From: Desulfofustis limnaeus
GTDB taxonomy: Bacteria; Desulfobacterota; Desulfobulbia; Desulfobulbales; Desulfocapsaceae
Reading direction: 5' to 3'
NCBI RefSeq assembly: GCF_023169885.1
Contig: NZ_AP025516.1
Location: 3,947,501 to 4,011,500, forward strand
DNA: 64,000 nucleotides
The translations under genes and the position numbers were made by a program. This document shows positions 17,551 to 28,077 of this stretch, in pieces. Within the stretch, counting starts at the first letter, position 1, and every line of letters begins with the position of its first letter. Under the pieces are notes generated by a model, which made no database searches, was not told where the DNA came from, and worked only from the letters and a program-made list of their open reading frames with translations.

Positions 17551-18021
17551 TCAGATGACCTTGCGGTAGACGATCTTGTCGTCGCCGTCGCGGTAGAAAT
17601 CCTTCAGGTGGGCCGCCACCTCGTAGCCGTTTTTCTCATAAAAGTGCCGAGCCGGCTGATACCCCGCGGTGGACGAGGTGTCGATATAGACATGCACGGG
17701 TTTGCTGCTGCTGAGCCGCCTCTCCATTTCGGCCAGCAGCATGGTGCCGATGCCGTGGCGCCCCTGCCGCGGATCGACAGCGATCCAATAGAGGTCGAAA
17801 CGATTCTCCGTCATCGGAATCGGGCCGTAACTGACAAAGCCGAGCATCCGCTGCTCTTCGGCAGCCGCGAGTACCCGGTAATCCTCCTTGGGATGAAAGG
17901 TGGCATCGATCACTTCGATGGCCACATCGATCTCGCACTTGAGGAAATTCTTTTGCATCTTGATGATCTGCACCAGCTGTTCGCGGTCTTTCGGCCTGAT
18001 CGGAGATATCGTTATATTCAT
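17551..18021 (-). CDS. GNAT-family N-acetyltransferase
   Basis: A 156-residue stand-alone acetyltransferase. The acetyl-CoA pyrophosphate loop is RQGRHGIGTMLL (about residues 88-99), and the C-terminal ARHFYEKNGYEVAAHLKDFY is typical of the family. Its start overlaps the upstream ATP-grasp stop as ATGA, implying translational coupling. Size and sequence do not match AblB, the larger beta-lysine acetyltransferase, so the acceptor is unknown. By context it is an amine made by this operon. Confidence 0.88.
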   Translation of the reverse strand: MNITISPIRPKDREQLVQIIKMQKNFLKCEIDVAIEVIDATFHPKEDYRVLAAAEEQRMLGFVSYGPIPMTENRFDLYWIAVDPRQGRHGIGTMLLAEMERRLSSSKPVHVYIDTSSTAGYQPARHFYEKNGYEVAAHLKDFYRDGDDKIVYRKVI

Positions 18022-19010
18022 ACCATTCTGTCACCCAGAAACGTAGTCATCTTAGCCACCATGGCGGTATAGTCGAGCCCGGCCCGGCCCACCGCGGCAG
18101 GAAAGCCGGCGTCGGGGCTGAGGCAGGGGTTGGCGTTGATCTCCAGGACATACAGGCTGCCGTCGCTGCCCATACGCAGGTCGACGCGGCCGTAATCGCG
18201 CAGACCAAAGAGCTGAAAGCAGCGGCGAGAAAGGTCCTGCAGCCGGGCGGTCAGGGTGTGCTCCAACGGCGGGAAGACCCGCTTGGTCTGCCGGTATTCG
18301 ACGGAGTCCGGTTCCCATTTGGCCCGGTATCCGACGATATGGTGCAGGTGTTGAGGCATCGAGGAGAAATCGATCTCAGCCACCGGCATGACTTCCGGGG
18401 CGGGGTAGCCGAGCAGGGAAACGTTGAATTCCCGGCCGTCGATGTACTCTTCCACCAACAACGGGCCGTAGGTTTGGAAGAAGGAGGTCAAGGCGTCGGG
18501 CAGGGCGGCGGCGGTGTCGATGATCGAGTCCTGATCGATGCCGATGCTGGCGTCTTGATCCCGCGGTTTGATGATCACCGGAAAGCGCAGCTGCGATGGG
18601 TCGGCGACGGGGGTGCCGTCATAGAGAAACGACGCCGGGGTCGGCAAACCGGCACCGCGGAGGAACAGCTTGGTGATCTGCTTGTTGGTGGTCGTCTGCA
18701 GAGCCGCCGATGGCGCGCCGGTGAAAGGTATACCCAGCAACTCCAGAACGGCAGCAGGATGAGCGATGAAAAACGGATCGTCGTCCAGCGATTCGCAGAG
18801 ATTGAAGGCCGCCTGGATGTCGGCGGCCTCGATGTCCTGCAGAAAGCGTTTCAGGTTGCGGCTGACCGGAATACGGGTCACCGGCCGGCCCAGGTCGATG
18901 AGCGACTGCTCGATGGCGTCCACCTGGGCCATGACATCGGCTGACGATTCCCAGTTGGCCAGCCCCGGTTCGATGGGCTGGTTGTAGATCAGGCCGATCA
19001 TGGCCGTCAT
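18018..19010 (-). CDS. D-Ala-D-Ala-ligase-like ATP-grasp enzyme (second)
   Basis: A 330-residue ATP-grasp ligase that would form an amide through an acyl phosphate. Landmarks: N-terminal FNLCESLDDDPFF, LELLGIPFTG, the KPRDQDASIGI lid, LVEEYIDGREFNVSLLG and the metal-binding RVDLRM...EINANPCLSPDAGF. The real start is ATG 19010 (MTAMIGLIYNQ), which overlaps the previous stop as ATGA; the frame is open further upstream but only inside the neighbouring gene. It is similar to, but clearly different from, the preceding ligase, so two successive couplings are likely. Confidence 0.88.
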   Translation of the reverse strand: MTAMIGLIYNQPIEPGLANWESSADVMAQVDAIEQSLIDLGRPVTRIPVSRNLKRFLQDIEAADIQAAFNLCESLDDDPFFIAHPAAVLELLGIPFTGAPSAALQTTTNKQITKLFLRGAGLPTPASFLYDGTPVADPSQLRFPVIIKPRDQDASIGIDQDSIIDTAAALPDALTSFFQTYGPLLVEEYIDGREFNVSLLGYPAPEVMPVAEIDFSSMPQHLHHIVGYRAKWEPDSVEYRQTKRVFPPLEHTLTARLQDLSRRCFQLFGLRDYGRVDLRMGSDGSLYVLEINANPCLSPDAGFPAAVGRAGLDYTAMVAKMTTFLGDRMV

Positions 19011-19996
19011 CCTTGGCCGTGCAGGCCGTGGCGAACGATGGCAGCGGTGATGATCCGCGCCATCAATTCCTGATAGCCGATGCCGTATTTGGTGGCGATG
19101 ATGCACAGGTCGGAGTGTTCCGGATGCAGGCCGGCCAGCGGGTTAATCTCGATGAAATGGGGACGGCCATGGGCGTCCGAGCGCAGGTCGACCCGGCCGG
19201 CATCACAGCAGCCGAGGACCCGGTAGCATTGCAGGGCCAGTTCCTCGGTCGCCCGAGCCTCGGGATCGTCCACGGCGCGGTATTCCACCAGCTCTTCACA
19301 GAACTCCTTGTTGTGATAGGAATAGACCTCCGGTTCCGATTGCTCGAGCAAGATTACCTCCATGATCCCAATGGAGCGTGCATCGTCTCCGTTGCCGACG
19401 ATGCCGACCGTGAACTCCCGGCCGGGCAGAAAGGTTTCCACCAGCACCGGTTGTTTGAAGGTGGCCAGCAACTGGGTGCAGGTATTTTGCAATTGCCCGG
19501 GGTCGGAGATCTTGGACGCCGGGGTGACGCCTTTGCCGGTGCCTTCCGCCACCGGTTTGGCAAACAGCGGGTAAGGCAGGTTGATTGCAGTGATATCGGC
19601 AGCTGTATTGACCACGGAGAAAGCCGGCGTCGCCAGTCCACTGTCTCTGATGATATGTTTGGCGATACCCTTGTGCAACGTAATGGCCTGCACCAGCGGA
19701 CCGGAAAAAACATAGGGGATGCGGTAGCCGTCGAGCAGGGCGGGAACCTGTGCCTCGCGGCCGAATCCATAGAGCCCCTCGGCAATATTGAAAACCAGAT
19801 CCCAGCGCTGGCCGGCGGCCAACTGGGATACCAGGCTCATGAGATTGCCGATGCGGACCGGTTCATGGCCCATGCTCCGGATCGCCCCTTCGATGGCCTC
19901 GATGGTGGAGAGACGGTCGAACTCGGCCGTCTCCTCTTCACCGAAGCCAGCGGCCAGGTAATCGTCGCGCAGGTCGTAGGTCATGCCTATTCGCAT
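19007..19996 (-). CDS. D-Ala-D-Ala-ligase-like ATP-grasp enzyme (first)
   Basis: A 329-residue ATP-grasp ligase. It shows DLVFNIAEGLYGFGREAQ, LLDGYRIPYVFSGP, the ATP lid FAKPVAEGTGKGV, LVETFLPGREFTVGIVG and the metal site RVDLRSD...FIEINPLAGLHPEHSDL. Its ending resembles peptidoglycan-type ligases, but the operon contains no other cell-wall gene. The start overlaps the kamA stop by 10 nt. Together with KamA this suggests activation of an amino acid and coupling to the amino group of beta-lysine or a product of it. Confidence 0.9.
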   Translation of the reverse strand: MRIGMTYDLRDDYLAAGFGEEETAEFDRLSTIEAIEGAIRSMGHEPVRIGNLMSLVSQLAAGQRWDLVFNIAEGLYGFGREAQVPALLDGYRIPYVFSGPLVQAITLHKGIAKHIIRDSGLATPAFSVVNTAADITAINLPYPLFAKPVAEGTGKGVTPASKISDPGQLQNTCTQLLATFKQPVLVETFLPGREFTVGIVGNGDDARSIGIMEVILLEQSEPEVYSYHNKEFCEELVEYRAVDDPEARATEELALQCYRVLGCCDAGRVDLRSDAHGRPHFIEINPLAGLHPEHSDLCIIATKYGIGYQELMARIITAAIVRHGLHGQG

Positions 19997-21219
19997 GGCA
20001 CCGCCTCACTGCAGGTAGAGCCGAACAGATCGGGATAACGAAAGACCCGGTCCTCATAGTTTTTCAACAGCAGGTCGTTGTTCTCCCGGCCGATCACGGT
20101 CTCGGGGAGCAGCGGGATCTTGCCGCCGCCTCCGGGGGCATCGATGACATAGGTGGGCACCGCGTAGCCGCTGGTATGGCCGCGCAGTCCCCGGTAGATC
20201 TCCAGTCCCTTGGCCACGGAGGTGCGGAAGTGGGATGAGCCGATGATCGGGTCGCACTGGTAGAGATAATAGGGCTTCACTCTGATGGTCAGCAGGTGCT
20301 GCATCAACCGTTTCATGGTCTCGACGGAATCGTTGATGCCGGAGAGCAGTACGGTCTGGCTGCCCAGCGGGATCCCGGCGTCGGCCAGCATGGTGCAAGC
20401 CCGACGGGACTCCGGGGTAAGTTCTTCGGGGTGCATGCAGTGGATGCTGATCCACAACGGGTGATACCGTTTCAACACCCTGACCAGGGCGGGGGTGATC
20501 CGTTGCGGCAGGACCATCGGCACTTTGGTGCCGATCCTGATCAATTCCACGTGCTTGATGGCACGGAGCCGACTGAGCAGCCAATCGAGCTGTTGATTGC
20601 TCAAGGTCAGCGGATCGCCGCCGGAGATCAGCACGTCACGGACTTCCGGGTGGCCGGCAATATAGTCGATGGCCGTTTGCCTCTGCTGCTTACCACCTTT
20701 GCTCCGCTTGCCGACCATCCGGGAGCGGGTGCAATAACGGCAGTAACTGGAGCAAAAATCGGTGACCAGAAAGAGGACTCGATCAGGATAACGGTGAATC
20801 AACCCTTTTACCGGGCTATGGCTGTCTTCACCAAGCGGATCCGGCGCCTCTCCGGGTGACACGAGCAATTCCGAAGCTACCGGGATCATGGCGCGCCGGA
20901 TCGGATGACTCGGATTGTCAGGGTCGATCAGGCTGGCGTAATAGGGGGTGATAGCCAGGGGCAACGTGGCGTTCTGGAACTGGAAAGCGTTGCGCTCGCT
21001 GTCGGTCAGAGAAAACATGCGCTCAAGCTGTTCGCATCGATCAATACGATGGCGAATCTGCCATTTCCAATTGTTCCAGTCAGTTAGGGTTGCTTCAGGG
21101 AAGAAACGGTGGCGAAAATCAGTGGTTTGGTCGGGGCAGGGAAAAGAGGGGGCAGCGGAAGCGGCTCCGCTGTCTGGGGGTTCGTCCTGCTCCTCGGCAA
21201 AGATCGTCTTCGCTATCAT
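19987..21219 (-). CDS. kamA: Lysine 2,3-aminomutase (KamA family, radical SAM/PLP)
   Basis: A 410-residue radical SAM enzyme, predicted to convert L-lysine to beta-lysine. The cluster-binding cysteines are C156, C160 and C163 (CSSYCRYC), followed by LISGGDPLTLS. The PLP-binding lysine is K367 in DAPGGGGKIP. Both aspartates that hold the substrate's side-chain amine in the clostridial enzyme are kept (D323 in YQCD, D360 in IDAPGGGGK), which favours lysine over glutamate as substrate. The start has GAAGGTGAG upstream. It is the first gene of the five-gene operon. The second half of the classic AblAB osmolyte pathway is missing, so free N-acetyl-beta-lysine is not the obvious product. Confidence 0.92.
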   Translation of the reverse strand: MIAKTIFAEEQDEPPDSGAASAAPSFPCPDQTTDFRHRFFPEATLTDWNNWKWQIRHRIDRCEQLERMFSLTDSERNAFQFQNATLPLAITPYYASLIDPDNPSHPIRRAMIPVASELLVSPGEAPDPLGEDSHSPVKGLIHRYPDRVLFLVTDFCSSYCRYCTRSRMVGKRSKGGKQQRQTAIDYIAGHPEVRDVLISGGDPLTLSNQQLDWLLSRLRAIKHVELIRIGTKVPMVLPQRITPALVRVLKRYHPLWISIHCMHPEELTPESRRACTMLADAGIPLGSQTVLLSGINDSVETMKRLMQHLLTIRVKPYYLYQCDPIIGSSHFRTSVAKGLEIYRGLRGHTSGYAVPTYVIDAPGGGGKIPLLPETVIGRENNDLLLKNYEDRVFRYPDLFGSTCSEAVPCE

Positions 21220-22625: not shown

Positions 22626-23180
22626 ATGACCTCCAATCCGTTCCATATCAGCGCCAGGGAGCTCAGAGGCAAGCAGTCGGTACGGGCCACTTTCAGACTT
22701 CCCGACGAGGTCATCGAGCTCTTGAAGACCGCTGCCGAACATCTCGGGGTGAAGCAAAAATCGCTGCTCGACCAATTGGTCGACGATCGGGATGTGTTGA
22801 GCAAGGTGGCGGCGGAGTGTCGCCGACTCGACCGGAACGGGGTGACCCGCCGACAGAAAACTTTCGTACTGAGTCGGAAGGCCCTGGCAATGCTTGATGA
22901 AATATCAGCCAGTCACAACATCGCCCGGGATATGCTGCTGGAACTCTCAGTTGGGAGATTGGCCCCGTTTGTCCTGGCCGAACAGGAGAAACAGCGCAAT
23001 CGCGAGGCGTTGACCCTGGATGTGGATCGCTTTGCGGCGAGTGGACGGAAATTGCTGCACAAGGCGGAAACCTTGCTGGAACGTGACGACCTGCTGCGAG
23101 TCAAGATTGAAAAAATGATCGGGCACGTAGAAAAGAGCATTGGCGACATGGCATCACTTTTTCCCGCCAAAAAAAGATAA
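22626..23180 (+). CDS. Protein with two ribbon-helix-helix-like segments, unknown function
   Basis: A 184-residue protein I do not recognise as a named family. Two segments resemble ribbon-helix-helix DNA-binding folds: SVRATFRLPDEVIELLKTAA (residues about 18-37) and QKTFVLSRKALAMLDEISAS (about 79-98). Each is followed by a short turn and a second helix. The C-terminal half is charged and probably helical (RNREALTLDVDRF, LLERDDLLRVKIEK). It could be a single-chain RHH repressor, possibly of the operons on either side. GAGG upstream of ATG 22626 is a fair ribosome-binding site. Confidence 0.6.
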   Translation: MTSNPFHISARELRGKQSVRATFRLPDEVIELLKTAAEHLGVKQKSLLDQLVDDRDVLSKVAAECRRLDRNGVTRRQKTFVLSRKALAMLDEISASHNIARDMLLELSVGRLAPFVLAEQEKQRNREALTLDVDRFAASGRKLLHKAETLLERDDLLRVKIEKMIGHVEKSIGDMASLFPAKKR

Positions 23181-23292: not shown

Positions 23293-23997
23293 ATGGATAT
23301 CAGGCTCGATGTCACCATGTTGCCACAGCCGGATGATTCCTCCTGCGGTCCGACGTGCCTGCATGCCGTATATGACTACTACGGGCTGCGGCGGCCGCTG
23401 CCGGAAATCATTTCGGAGATCGAGTTTCTCGACAAAGGGGGAACTCTGGGGGTTGTCCTAGCCAACCATGCCTTGGGGAGCGGTTTCAACGTCACCCTCT
23501 GCACCTACAACCTGATGATTTTCGATCCGACCTGGTTCAACCGGGGCGTCAATCTGGCCGAGCGGTTACGGAAACGGTTCGCTTTTACCGGGAGTCGGAA
23601 GCAACGGTTTGCCATCAAGCAATACCTGCAGTTTCTGGCAGGCGGCGGCACCATCAAGTTCGAAGACATGACCCGGCGGTTGCTCACCGGGTTTCTGGAG
23701 AAAAATATTCCGATCATCACCGGATTGAACAGCACATTTCTTTACCGCTCCTCCCGAGTCTTCGCCGAGACCATGAGAGACGATGATATCCGCGGCCGGG
23801 TCGAGGGCCACTTCGTGGTCCTCAGCGGCTATGAACGCAGCAGTCGGGTTGTCGCCATCGCCGACCCGTACAGCAGGAACCCGTTTACCGGCAATACATC
23901 CTACCGAATCGGTATCGATCGGGTAATCAATGCCATCCTGCTCGGTGTCATGACCTATGATGCTAATTTCATCATCATTGAGCCTCAGCCGACATAG
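23293..23997 (+). CDS. C39-like (papain-fold) cysteine peptidase or transglutaminase-like protein
   Basis: A 234-residue papain-fold protein without signal peptide or membrane segment. The predicted triad is Cys18 in DDSSCGPTCLHAVYDYYG, His173 in VEGHFVVLSGY, and Asp191 in AIADPYS. C39 domains usually cut Gly-Gly leader peptides, but here no ABC exporter is attached. It is the first of three tightly packed genes with two amide-forming ligases (8 nt to the next). A likely job is to hydrolyse, transfer or trim the amide or peptide made by the partners. Confidence 0.82.
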   Translation: MDIRLDVTMLPQPDDSSCGPTCLHAVYDYYGLRRPLPEIISEIEFLDKGGTLGVVLANHALGSGFNVTLCTYNLMIFDPTWFNRGVNLAERLRKRFAFTGSRKQRFAIKQYLQFLAGGGTIKFEDMTRRLLTGFLEKNIPIITGLNSTFLYRSSRVFAETMRDDDIRGRVEGHFVVLSGYERSSRVVAIADPYSRNPFTGNTSYRIGIDRVINAILLGVMTYDANFIIIEPQPT

Positions 23998-24005
23998 GGC
24001 CCCTC

Positions 24006-25469
24006 ATGAAACTGCTTTTGATCGTACCCAACCCGAAAAAACTTCCTTTCAAAATCGCCGGCGTCGAGGCCGTCGCCGCCCGGACCTACCTGACCGAACC
24101 AGTCTTCGCCAAGATGAACGGGGTTCGGGTCTTCAATCTGTGCAGCAGTTACCGTTACAAGTCAATCGGTTATTACGTCTCACTGATAGCGGAGGCCAGA
24201 GGGCATCGACCGGTGCCGAACATCACGGTGATACGGGATCTGCAGACACCGGCGATGGTTCGCATGGCCAACGCGGAACTGCATGATCTGATTCAAAAAA
24301 GTCTGAGAAAGATCAAACAGAACCACTATACGTTGAGCATCTATTTCGGCCGTAATGTGGCCAAGCAATACGATGCCTTATGCCGGGAGCTGTTCAATCG
24401 GTTTCACGCACCCCTCATGCGGGCCGAACTACTGCTGGGAAAAGACGGGTCCTGGGGTATTCACCAACTGCGCAATATCGGTATTGGCGACATCCCGGAG
24501 GCCCACCTGCCGTTTCTTGCCAACCGGGGGGAGACCTATTTTGCCCAGCACGGCTATCGCCACCGTCGAAGAGCGCTGTACCGGTATTCGTTGGCGCTCT
24601 TGCACAACCCGGCAGAGGACCATGCTCCTTCCAATGCCGGCGCACTCAAACGTTTTATTCGTGCCGGAGAGAAAAACAACCTGGAGGTGAAGCTGATCAC
24701 CCGTGAGGATTTTTCACGGCTGCCCGAGTTCGACGCGCTGTTCATTCGTGAAACAACCAACGTGAATGACCACACTTTTCGTTTTGCCCGCTATGCCGAA
24801 GCTAACCAACTGGTGGTGATCGACGACCCGCAGTCGATCATTCGCTGTGCCAACAAGGTCTTTCTGGCGGAGATGTTGGCTCACTACCGGATCAAGACGC
24901 CGCAGACAATGATCGTCCATCGCGACAATGTCGAGGTGATTCCGTTTGAACTGGGGTTGCCGTGCGTCATCAAGCAGCCGGACAGCGCCTTTTCGGTGGG
25001 GGTGATCAAGGTGACCAGCGAGGATGAGTTGCGTCAGGCCTGCGAGAAAATGCTCGACCGATCGGAACTGATCATCGCTCAGACCTTTCTGCCCACTGAT
25101 TTCGACTGGCGAATCGGCATCCTCGATCGTAAACCGCTTTTTGTCTGCCGATATTATATGGTGGAAAACCACTGGCAGATCATCAAGCACGAGCGCGACG
25201 GGAGACAGGAGGAGGGCTTATTTGAGACACTGGCTGAGGAAGACGCTCCGGCCGAGGCGCTAAAGCTGGCGCTCCGGGCCACCCAGCATATCGGAGACGG
25301 CTTGTACGGGGTTGATATCAAACAGGTGGGGAATCGGTTTTACGTCATCGAGGTCAACGATAACCCAAATATCGATGAAGGGATCGAGGATGCCGTTTTG
25401 AAGGACGCGCTCTATCAGAGCATCATCCAGTCCTTCTTGCGAAGAATCATTAAAAAGAAGGGGCTATGA
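24006..25469 (+). CDS. RimK-type ATP-grasp ligase with N-terminal RLAN domain
   Basis: A 487-residue ligase. Residues 1-175 form the RLAN domain typical of this subclass (TYLTEPVFAKMNGVRVFNLC, YFGRNVAKQYDAL). The ATP-grasp part (about 225-480) has LFIRETTNVNDHTFRFA, the lid CVIKQPDSAFSVGV, FDWRIGILDRKPLFVCRYYM and the metal ligands in VIEVNDNPNID. Relatives add glutamate or similar amino acids to amines or protein ends. The gene overlaps the following GCS2-type ligase as ATGA and follows the papain-like gene by 8 nt, so the three products probably act together on one substrate. Confidence 0.88.
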   Translation: MKLLLIVPNPKKLPFKIAGVEAVAARTYLTEPVFAKMNGVRVFNLCSSYRYKSIGYYVSLIAEARGHRPVPNITVIRDLQTPAMVRMANAELHDLIQKSLRKIKQNHYTLSIYFGRNVAKQYDALCRELFNRFHAPLMRAELLLGKDGSWGIHQLRNIGIGDIPEAHLPFLANRGETYFAQHGYRHRRRALYRYSLALLHNPAEDHAPSNAGALKRFIRAGEKNNLEVKLITREDFSRLPEFDALFIRETTNVNDHTFRFARYAEANQLVVIDDPQSIIRCANKVFLAEMLAHYRIKTPQTMIVHRDNVEVIPFELGLPCVIKQPDSAFSVGVIKVTSEDELRQACEKMLDRSELIIAQTFLPTDFDWRIGILDRKPLFVCRYYMVENHWQIIKHERDGRQEEGLFETLAEEDAPAEALKLALRATQHIGDGLYGVDIKQVGNRFYVIEVNDNPNIDEGIEDAVLKDALYQSIIQSFLRRIIKKKGL

Positions 25470-26695
25470 AGAGACAACTCCACCTGTTTGACGGGTACGG
25501 CATCGAGATCGAATACATGATTGTCGACCGCCGGGATTGGCGGATCAGACCACTCGCCGCCGTCCTGTTGCGTGACGAGCACGGGGCGATTGTCAACGAA
25601 CGGTGTCATGGTGATGTGTGCTGGTCCAACGAATTGGTCCAGCATGTGGTCGAGCTGAAGACCGCGGCGCCGGTCTCTTCGCCTTCCGGTCTGGCCGAGA
25701 CGTTCCAAGATGATATCCGCACGATCAATCGCTTGCTGGCACCATATGACGCGACTCTTCTGCCCGGCGCCACGCACCCGTTGATGGACCCGCTCGCGGA
25801 GACGCTGCTCTGGGAAGAAGACGATCGGGACATCTACCAGGCCTTCAATGCGATTTTTGATTGTCGCGGGCATGGCTGGTCCAACCTGCAATCGATGCAT
25901 GTCAATCTGCCTTTCCAGGGAGATGACGAATTTTTTCGGTTGCATGGAGCGATTCGGGCGATACTGCCGTTTATTCCGGCACTGGCTGCTTCTTCGCCAT
26001 TTCAGGATGGGCGCGACACCGGTCTGTTGGATGCCCGAATGGATCATTACGGCAAAAACTGTGCGAGAATCCCCCAGGTGACCGGGCTGATCGTACCCGA
26101 ACCGATCAAAGACCGTGCCGATTACCACCAGTCTATTCTTCAGCCGCTCTACCAGCAATTGAAGCCGCACGACCCGCGAGGGATCCTGCAGCATGAGTGG
26201 GCCAACGCCCGTGGGGCGATCGCCCGTTTTGAGCGCAATACCATCGAGATCAGAGTGATCGATTCCCAGGAATGCCCGGCTGCCGACATCGGCGTGGCTG
26301 CCTTGATCTGCGGGGTAGTGCGCTCCTTCGCAGAAGCCGGGGTGGATCGCATCATGGCCTTGAACCGACTGCCCACGCAGCTGCTCCATCAGCAGCTACG
26401 GGCCTGTATCGAACGGGCCGAGCAGGCACCGATCATCGACCCCGATCTGGGCAAGGCCTTCGGCCTCCCTCCGGCACTGCACACCGGCGGTGATTTTTGG
26501 CGACACTGGGCGGGGTGCGTGCCCGGTGTCGATCCGCATCTGCAGACACTTGCCGTTATTTTCCAGGAAGGCACGCTGGCCACGCGCATGAAGGCCGGCT
26601 GCGGGGAGGTCACCAGGCACGACCTGCAGCGGCTTTGCGAAAAGTTGAGCCGCTGTCTTGCTGAAGGCATGATGTTTCAGCCGGCCCAGAGATAA
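25466..26695 (+). CDS. GCS2-type carboxylate-amine ligase
   Basis: A 409-residue member of the glutamate-cysteine ligase type 2 (YbdK-like) superfamily, which forms gamma-glutamyl or similar amide bonds using ATP. Visible elements: FDGYGIEIEYMIVDRRDWRI at the N-terminus (metal-binding acidic residues), NELVQHVVELKTAAPV, LLPGATHPLMDP, WSNLQSMHVNLPF and RFERNTIEIRVIDSQECPAADI. No glutathione synthetase accompanies it, so glutathione is unlikely. The partner RimK/RLAN ligase suggests a small glutamyl-type metabolite. It ends 2 nt before the converging HD-GYP gene. Confidence 0.86.
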   Translation: MKRQLHLFDGYGIEIEYMIVDRRDWRIRPLAAVLLRDEHGAIVNERCHGDVCWSNELVQHVVELKTAAPVSSPSGLAETFQDDIRTINRLLAPYDATLLPGATHPLMDPLAETLLWEEDDRDIYQAFNAIFDCRGHGWSNLQSMHVNLPFQGDDEFFRLHGAIRAILPFIPALAASSPFQDGRDTGLLDARMDHYGKNCARIPQVTGLIVPEPIKDRADYHQSILQPLYQQLKPHDPRGILQHEWANARGAIARFERNTIEIRVIDSQECPAADIGVAALICGVVRSFAEAGVDRIMALNRLPTQLLHQQLRACIERAEQAPIIDPDLGKAFGLPPALHTGGDFWRHWAGCVPGVDPHLQTLAVIFQEGTLATRMKAGCGEVTRHDLQRLCEKLSRCLAEGMMFQPAQR

Positions 26696-26697
26696 AC

Positions 26698-28077
26698 TCA
26701 GAAAAGCGCTTCGTTGAGAAGCAGTTCCTCCACTTGAAGGGATCGGTGTTCCCCGGCGGCCAGATTGATCTGGTAGTAATCGGCCCCGGAGAGTTCGGTG
26801 CCGTCGGGGGCTTTTGTTATTTTGATTCGGGGACGGTCGATCCTCGGGCCGCTGAGCATGACCAAACCCCGGCTGCCGTCGGAGAGACGGACCATGGTAC
26901 CCGGCGGGTAGAGGCCGATGACCGAAATGAACGAAGCCAGCATGGTAGGGTGGAAACCACCTTTGTCGCGCAGCATGATCCCGTAGGCGACATGTGGAGA
27001 AAGCGCCGGCTTATAGGGCCGCGCAGCGGTAAGGGCCTCGAAGGCGTCACAGATCTGTAAAAGCGAGGTTATCGGATGCCTGACCGCCCAATCGGGTTGA
27101 CGCGGATAACCGGTACCGTCATGACGGATATGGTGACCCCAGGCGGCGGCGATGTCGAGCGGTGACGAGTCCTTGTGGGCGAGCAGGATCTCGGCGCCGA
27201 TTCGGGAGTGGGCCATGATCTCGGCAAATTCGTCTTTGGTGAGTTTGCCCGGCTTATAGAGGATCTGTTCGGAGACCTTACTCTTGCCGATATCGTGCAG
27301 CAGGCCGGCGGTCCCCAGGGCCAGCAGCATCTCCTCGCTCCAGTTGAAGGCATTGCCGAGAAAAACCGCCAGGGCGGCAACACGGACCGAATGGCCGACG
27401 GTATAGCTGTCGTAATCCGGGTAGTGAACATGCTGCATCATGTCGGAGAAATGGGCTTTGGTGAAATGCAGCATGTATTCGCTGACGGACCGGGTATTGT
27501 CGATGTCGATGTCCTGACCCAGCACCACATCCCCGTGCGTCTGGGCTACGGAGTCGAACAGGGCCTGGTAGATCAGTGTCGGCGAGTAGAGAAAATCGCC
27601 GGTGTCCTGTCCCTGCCAGACGGTGCGCTGCTCCCTGGTCATGGCTCCGGACGAGCCCACATAGTGATGGGCGATCTCGATGGTGAATATGTTGTTGGCA
27701 ACCAGTAACTCGCGGGCCTGTTTGATGCTTTCCACCGGCAGTTTGAGGTCGACGCTCAAGTCCAGCAGGGCGGAGAATTCGGCCTGTGAGGTTTGGGCCG
27801 AGAACGAGAACCCGCCACAGCGCAGTTTCTCCGCAAACTGGATGAGCTGGCGGCCGACAATGCTGGGACCGACCAGGTTTCGTCCTTCGAAGACCAGGGT
27901 GTTGTCGACAATACCGATGAACAGCTTGTCAAGATTGGCGTCGCGGCAAAAGGTTTGAAGTTTCTCAATGAACCCGGCGGCCAGCGCAAGGACTTTCGGA
28001 TGGTCGGAAAAGTAGAGTTTCCTTGTTGAGATGGCCCGGCACAACAGGATGAGGACAGTGTTCAATTGATCGAACAT
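26698..28077 (-). CDS. HD-GYP domain protein
   Basis: A 459-residue protein predicted to degrade cyclic di-GMP or bind it. The N-terminal 200 residues are helical and unassigned. The HD-GYP domain (about 220-390) has GHSVRVAALA, LLHDIGKSKV, HSRIGAEILL, the signature HHIRHDGTGYP and DAFEALTAARPYK. In the signature the usual Glu after HH is Ile, so activity may be changed. A C-terminal beta-rich tail follows (PGTMVRLSDGSRGLVM). It follows the HEAT-like gene by 15 nt in the same operon. Confidence 0.88.
   Translation of the reverse strand: MFDQLNTVLILLCRAISTRKLYFSDHPKVLALAAGFIEKLQTFCRDANLDKLFIGIVDNTLVFEGRNLVGPSIVGRQLIQFAEKLRCGGFSFSAQTSQAEFSALLDLSVDLKLPVESIKQARELLVANNIFTIEIAHHYVGSSGAMTREQRTVWQGQDTGDFLYSPTLIYQALFDSVAQTHGDVVLGQDIDIDNTRSVSEYMLHFTKAHFSDMMQHVHYPDYDSYTVGHSVRVAALAVFLGNAFNWSEEMLLALGTAGLLHDIGKSKVSEQILYKPGKLTKDEFAEIMAHSRIGAEILLAHKDSSPLDIAAAWGHHIRHDGTGYPRQPDWAVRHPITSLLQICDAFEALTAARPYKPALSPHVAYGIMLRDKGGFHPTMLASFISVIGLYPPGTMVRLSDGSRGLVMLSGPRIDRPRIKITKAPDGTELSGADYYQINLAAGEHRSLQVEELLLNEALF

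Follow-up and report, generated by a model that had tools for sequence, protein, structure and literature searches.

What product do a papain-fold protein and two different ATP-dependent ligases handle when their genes are packed into a single operon of Desulfofustis limnaeus? The window analyzed here, a stretch of 64,000 nucleotides, comes from a single-contig genome of 4.23 Mb and carries on its plus strand genes for a 234-residue C39-like papain-fold protein (23293-23997), a 487-residue ligase that combines an RLAN domain with a RimK/LysX-type ATP-grasp domain (24006-25469), and a 409-residue carboxylate-amine ligase of glutamate-cysteine ligase family 2 (GCS2; 25466-26695). All three open reading frames are intact and co-directional. 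A gap of 8 nt (23998-24005, plus strand) separates the C39 and RLAN genes, and the RLAN stop codon overlaps the GCS2 start codon in a 4-nt ATGA (25466-25469, plus strand). Re-deriving the coordinates returned the same arrangement of three adjacent genes that an initial, sequence-only reading had described.

Upstream of the trio lie a plus-strand gene for a 184-residue protein with no Pfam match (22626-23180), for which a weak BrnA-antitoxin-like match was seen (20.6 bits vs a cut-off of 60), and genes for two Hsp20 proteins; a gene for an HD-domain protein follows on the minus strand (26698-28077). Promoter and terminator scans gave nothing beyond what shuffled sequences gave. Neither the open reading frame list nor Pfam placed an exporter or precursor peptide at the locus or in its gaps, in agreement with the sequence-only reading, and a leader peptidase/RiPP system was dropped for lack of both. 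Phage defense was also dropped, as PADLOC matched none of the three proteins. The statement that no glutathione synthetase accompanies the genes holds at the locus but not across the genome, where a GshB-like ATP-grasp gene lies ~0.76 Mb from the trio; a YbdK-type GCS2 gene lies ~1.9 Mb from it.

To place the trio in context, RLAN loci were sampled by scanning contigs with the RLAN protein and by surveying relatives, with profiles then built from those loci; the sample was then enlarged by 40 regions, of which 39 belong to the planctomycete group. The 114 RLAN loci, drawn from the window's own order, Planctomycetota, Sumerlaeota, Verrucomicrobiota, and others, comprise 75 of class A, 34 of class B, and 5 others. 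Class A has the order C39-RLAN-GCS2, often with a fourth gene, while class B joins GNAT and RLAN, fused or adjacent, and in some loci includes a DUF3335 (C39-like) domain. The window locus, whose C39, RLAN, and GCS2 genes directly follow one another in this order on a single strand, belongs to class A. Among the 65 class-A loci with enough flanking sequence, RLAN is immediately preceded by C39 in 58 and immediately followed by GCS2 in 64. The linkage is thus conserved, the opposite of the outcome that would have undercut the sequence-only reading, and recurrence of this order in dozens of genomes from several phyla excludes chance. GNAT occurs in none of the class-A loci, and GCS2, C39, and the fourth-gene family (FGase) occur near none of the class-B loci, a separation that follows in part from the class definitions.

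When 70 RLAN proteins were placed in a maximum-likelihood tree, all 43 class-A rows came to lie in one starred group, together with two rows of unassigned context, and class B on two other branches. The identity matrices of C39, RLAN, and GCS2 correlate at 0.57-0.68, values that genome kinship alone could explain. RLAN proteins of both classes were present in 77 of 292 sampled planctomycete-group genomes. The closest relatives of the window RLAN and C39 proteins belong to a member of the Sedimentisphaerales (Planctomycetota; L029), at 61.6% and 54.2%, respectively, rather than to copies from their own family, and RLAN is absent from the one same-genus genome; horizontal transfer is therefore likely.

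We searched the same draw of 395 genomes from the window's phylum three times, for RLAN, GCS2, and C39. RLAN was found in 18 genomes, three of class B by context (L110-L112) and 15 of class A. Strong-scoring GCS2 proteins of the trio's subfamily occur in exactly these 15 class-A genomes, and three further GCS2 matches reach only 42-58 bits. The 15 genomes span eight families; because they are related, we attach no probability to this pattern. C39 was likewise found in 15 genomes, namely 14 of the 15 with RLAN and GCS2 and one other (G185), which has neither RLAN nor trio-type GCS2. The remaining RLAN-GCS2 genome (G272) has no C39. Given these two genomes, C39 is not strictly required. The lone C39 of the module's subfamily (L139; G185:C85, 3170-3913) shares its contig with an incomplete ATP-grasp frame and one that resembles a PLP enzyme.

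The survey also extended the module in ways that the sequence-only reading, although right about the trio, had missed. The gene after GCS2 encodes a protein of the N-formylglutamate-amidohydrolase family (FGase; PF05013, 76-83 bits), which lies downstream of GCS2 in 37 of the 65 class-A loci and is absent from 28. None stands beside the window's GCS2 gene. The sole PF05013 protein of the source genome (C1:872025) does not match the operon-type FGase profile and was dropped as a fourth member acting in trans. In five planctomycete-group genomes (L140-L144), the RLAN-ATP-grasp ligase and GCS2 form one open frame of 990-1028 codons, which backs joint action of the two ligases; in one of these (L143), C39 precedes the fusion and FGase follows it. 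Three planctomycete loci (L041, L043, and L045) have RLAN and GCS2 without C39, and their genomes carry a C39-FGase pair at another site, where the two matches are 20-56 bp apart. The module is therefore divisible into two halves, one of ligases and the other of hydrolase folds. Linkage, co-occurrence, and fusions together support the earlier proposal of a linked amide-making system in which ATP-dependent ligases of two kinds are joined by a papain-fold protein.

The C39-like protein matches Peptidase_C39_2 at 36.7 bits (cut-off 24). The Cys18-His173-Asp191 triad that had been read from the sequence is complete, and an alignment of 20 orthologues shows no variation at these three residues or at Gln12, which occupies the oxyanion position. 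The AF2 model (pLDDT 86.7) has C39 peptidases (Z 16.3) and a phytochelatin synthase acyl-enzyme (Z 15.9) at the top of its 50 best fold matches, and superposes on the glutathione acyl-enzyme of phytochelatin synthase Alr0975 at 2.6 Å over 162 residues. Both the fold and the Gln-Cys-His-Asp set place the protein in the papain-fold C39 superfamily. It lacks the gene context of a bacteriocin-type C39 leader peptidase, being a stand-alone protein with no ABC transporter or double-glycine precursor fused to it or at its locus. The phytochelatin synthase family PF05023 gave no Pfam match at E ≤ 0.001, and the likeness to that family is in fold only.

The RLAN ligase matches RLAN (PF14401) at 151.3 bits (cut-off 25) over residues 25-173 and RimK (PF08443) at 38.9 bits (cut-off 21) over residues 283-458. 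Its ATP-grasp part spans residues ~194-482, C-terminal to the RLAN domain. The ATP- and metal (Mg)-binding residues K284, K323, D437, E449, and N451 are invariant in 29 sequences. Fold matches of the model, which cover residues ~190-487 only and leave the RLAN domain outside, are closest to ArgX/LysX (Z 26.6), followed by RimK (Z 25.4) and glutathione synthetase (Z 21.1). RimK itself adds amino acids to ribosomal protein S6. Where RimK has the loop FRSNLHRGG, the RLAN ligase orthologues have a near-invariant HWQI segment, which argues against RimK's own substrate, and the protein scores 29.2 bits against a cut-off of 331 for the S6--L-glutamate ligase equivalog (NF007764). On these two grounds, classical RimK was dropped.

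GCS2 matches its Pfam family at 95.5 bits (cut-off 21). Residues E14, E16, E63, H104, H145, E261, R263, and D266 are invariant in orthologues and align with YbdK, the nearest solved sequence (1r8g, 34 bits); plant glutamate-cysteine ligase was also matched, at a low score. Every NCBIfam score for this protein is far below its cut-off, including those of the glutamate-cysteine ligase (GshA/EgtA) equivalogs (NF010043, 54.5 vs 409; TIGR02048, 26.5 vs 249).

We consider it somewhat more probable than its converse that these three genes form the core of a conserved module that makes and breaks one small, non-ribosomal glutamyl amide or short peptide. In the best reading, the RLAN ligase and GCS2 act one after the other as synthetases of a single product, as their fusion and strict co-occurrence suggest, and C39, with FGase where present, cleaves or transfers it, as the C39-FGase pairing suggests. 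Linkage, active-site conservation, and the folds also speak for this scheme; we count against it the absence of FGase from the window operon, the fact that the genome's PF05013 protein is not of the operon type, the dispensability of C39 seen in the two genomes above, and the equally good fold match of C39 to ordinary leader peptidases. GCS2 and ATP-grasp families form amides by acyl-phosphate chemistry. GCS2 would convert the γ-carboxylate of glutamate to an acyl phosphate and couple it with an amino acid or amine, and the ATP-grasp domain would add another amide bond to that molecule through the mechanism of RimK, LysX, and glutathione synthetase, with either ligase possibly acting first. 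Cys18 of C39 would attack an amide of the product, whose acyl part would be released or transferred, as with phytochelatin synthase acting on glutathione. The FGase-type hydrolase would cut an N-acyl-glutamate-like amide.

Known GCS2 enzymes use free amino acids, which argues against a protein-modification cycle in which amino acids would be attached to a protein by the RLAN ligase, together with GCS2, and stripped off again by C39 and FGase. Such a cycle would accord with the nearness of the ATP-grasp domain to RimK and to the protein-carrier ligases LysX and ArgX, and RimK has a partner protease, RimB, that strips glutamates from RpsF (PMC12239564). However, no recurrent gene for a carrier or substrate protein was found in the RLAN loci, whose flanks vary, and the RimK substrate loop is replaced; we regard protein modification as improbable. 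Another arrangement is a three-step synthesis in which C39 completes the product as an acyl or peptidyl transferase, like BtrH, CtaG, or phytochelatin synthase, and FGase removes a protecting N-acyl group. Papain-fold transferases do exist: BtrH has been assigned an aminoglycoside acyltransferase role (PMC10318531), and CtaG, found beside the ATP-grasp protein CtaD, that of a peptidyl transferase (PMC6772006). Of known folds, that of phytochelatin synthase is one of the nearest to C39, and CtaG gave a weaker Foldseek match; its place outside the best 50 of a second fold comparison does not count against that likeness. The equally good match of ordinary C39 leader peptidases, however, means that the fold does not favor transferase chemistry. 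Some class-A loci lack C39, and C39 can pair with FGase away from the ligases, as would better suit a hydrolytic or recycling role, so that we judge this synthesis line unlikely, if a little less so than protein modification.

A variant thiol pathway, yielding a glutathione analogue or a metal-binding, phytochelatin-like peptide from γ-Glu-Cys, is very improbable. The three families do parallel GshA (GCS2), GshB (ATP-grasp), and phytochelatin synthase (papain fold), but GCS2 is far from the glutamate-cysteine ligases by both its best PDB match and its NCBIfam scores, GshB-like and YbdK-like genes are already present elsewhere in the genome, and no recurring thiol or metal gene was seen beside the module. 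Like the glutathione and phytochelatin enzymes (GshA-GshB or GshF, and phytochelatin synthase), the module combines a papain fold with a glutamyl carboxylate-amine ligase and with an ATP-grasp ligase that in some lineages is fused to the latter enzyme's partner ligase, and the fused RLAN-GCS2 proteins recall the bifunctional GshF of glutathione synthesis. Unlike the glutathione set, the trio has an ATP-grasp domain nearer LysX/RimK than GshB and a GCS2 remote from glutamate-cysteine ligase, and the module adds an RLAN domain and FGase within one operon.

Returning to the favored scheme of paired synthesis and breakdown, we propose more tentatively, as a possibility that we hold short of even, that the GCS2-ATP-grasp pair makes an undescribed metabolite or signal, which a C39-FGase pair dedicated to it turns over. 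Such a cycle would resemble that of glutathione but have a chemistry of its own, and would be shared by Planctomycetota, Desulfobacterota-type bacteria, and a few further phyla. If this is true, the module would supply a complete gene set, two synthetases and two breakdown or transfer enzymes, for a widespread bacterial metabolite. For an in vitro product search, the C39-FGase pair and the RLAN-GCS2 fusions would be simple reagents, and a papain-fold subfamily otherwise annotated just as 'C39 peptidase' would gain a functional context.

Operons of RLAN/RimK-type ATP-grasp proteins were reportedly predicted by Iyer et al. in 2009 to be uncharacterized amidoligase systems for small amides, and that survey is said to have named the RLAN domain and predicted RLAN/GCS2 operons for amides. 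With those operons the window trio would share RLAN, a RimK-like ATP-grasp domain, and predicted small-amide products. On that account, the window operon belongs to an already predicted, uncharacterized kind, now with a sharper anatomy, to which the FGase gene, the RLAN-GCS2 fusion, and the split pairs would be additions. The literature that we searched, which did not include the 2009 survey, contained no mention of the RLAN domain that we could find, and the search found no paper covering at least three of RimK, N-formylglutamate amidohydrolase, glutamate-cysteine ligase, and C39.

Other known systems share parts of this design. The RimK-RimB and RloABC systems also encode a RimK-type ATP-grasp protein with a peptidase (PMC12239564), but that peptidase is a retropepsin, GCS2 and C39 are lacking, and RimK's substrate loop is not kept in the trio's ligase. 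Class-B operons of GNAT-DUF3335 (C39-like) and RLAN likewise give the RLAN ATP-grasp protein a papain-fold partner, but with GNAT instead of GCS2 and FGase. The N-acetylglutaminylglutamine amide (NAGGN) system resembles the module in encoding an ATP-grasp ligase with other amide enzymes, and class-B loci resemble it in joining GNAT to ATP-grasp; unlike the trio, it lacks a GCS2 partner. In the source genome, the NAGGN ligase is encoded by a separate gene away from the trio (G000:C1:4063236-4063934, minus strand; L002). The match of this gene to N-acetylglutaminylglutamine synthetase (TIGR03103, 833 bits vs a cut-off of 569) indicates that the organism probably makes the NAGGN osmolyte.

Two further gene groups may touch on amide chemistry. 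In five of six genomes of window-family relatives (L084-L089), a class-B locus reads citrate synthase, RLAN, GNAT, and a SET protein; a citrate synthase beside a RimK-like ligase recalls, speculatively, β-citrylglutamate-type products. Within the window, the minus-strand region 18018-21219 encodes a KamA-family aminomutase (TIGR03820, 494 bits, under the cut-off of 525) accompanied by two overlapping D-Ala-D-Ala-ligase-like ATP-grasp genes, and this cluster is possibly another amide system.
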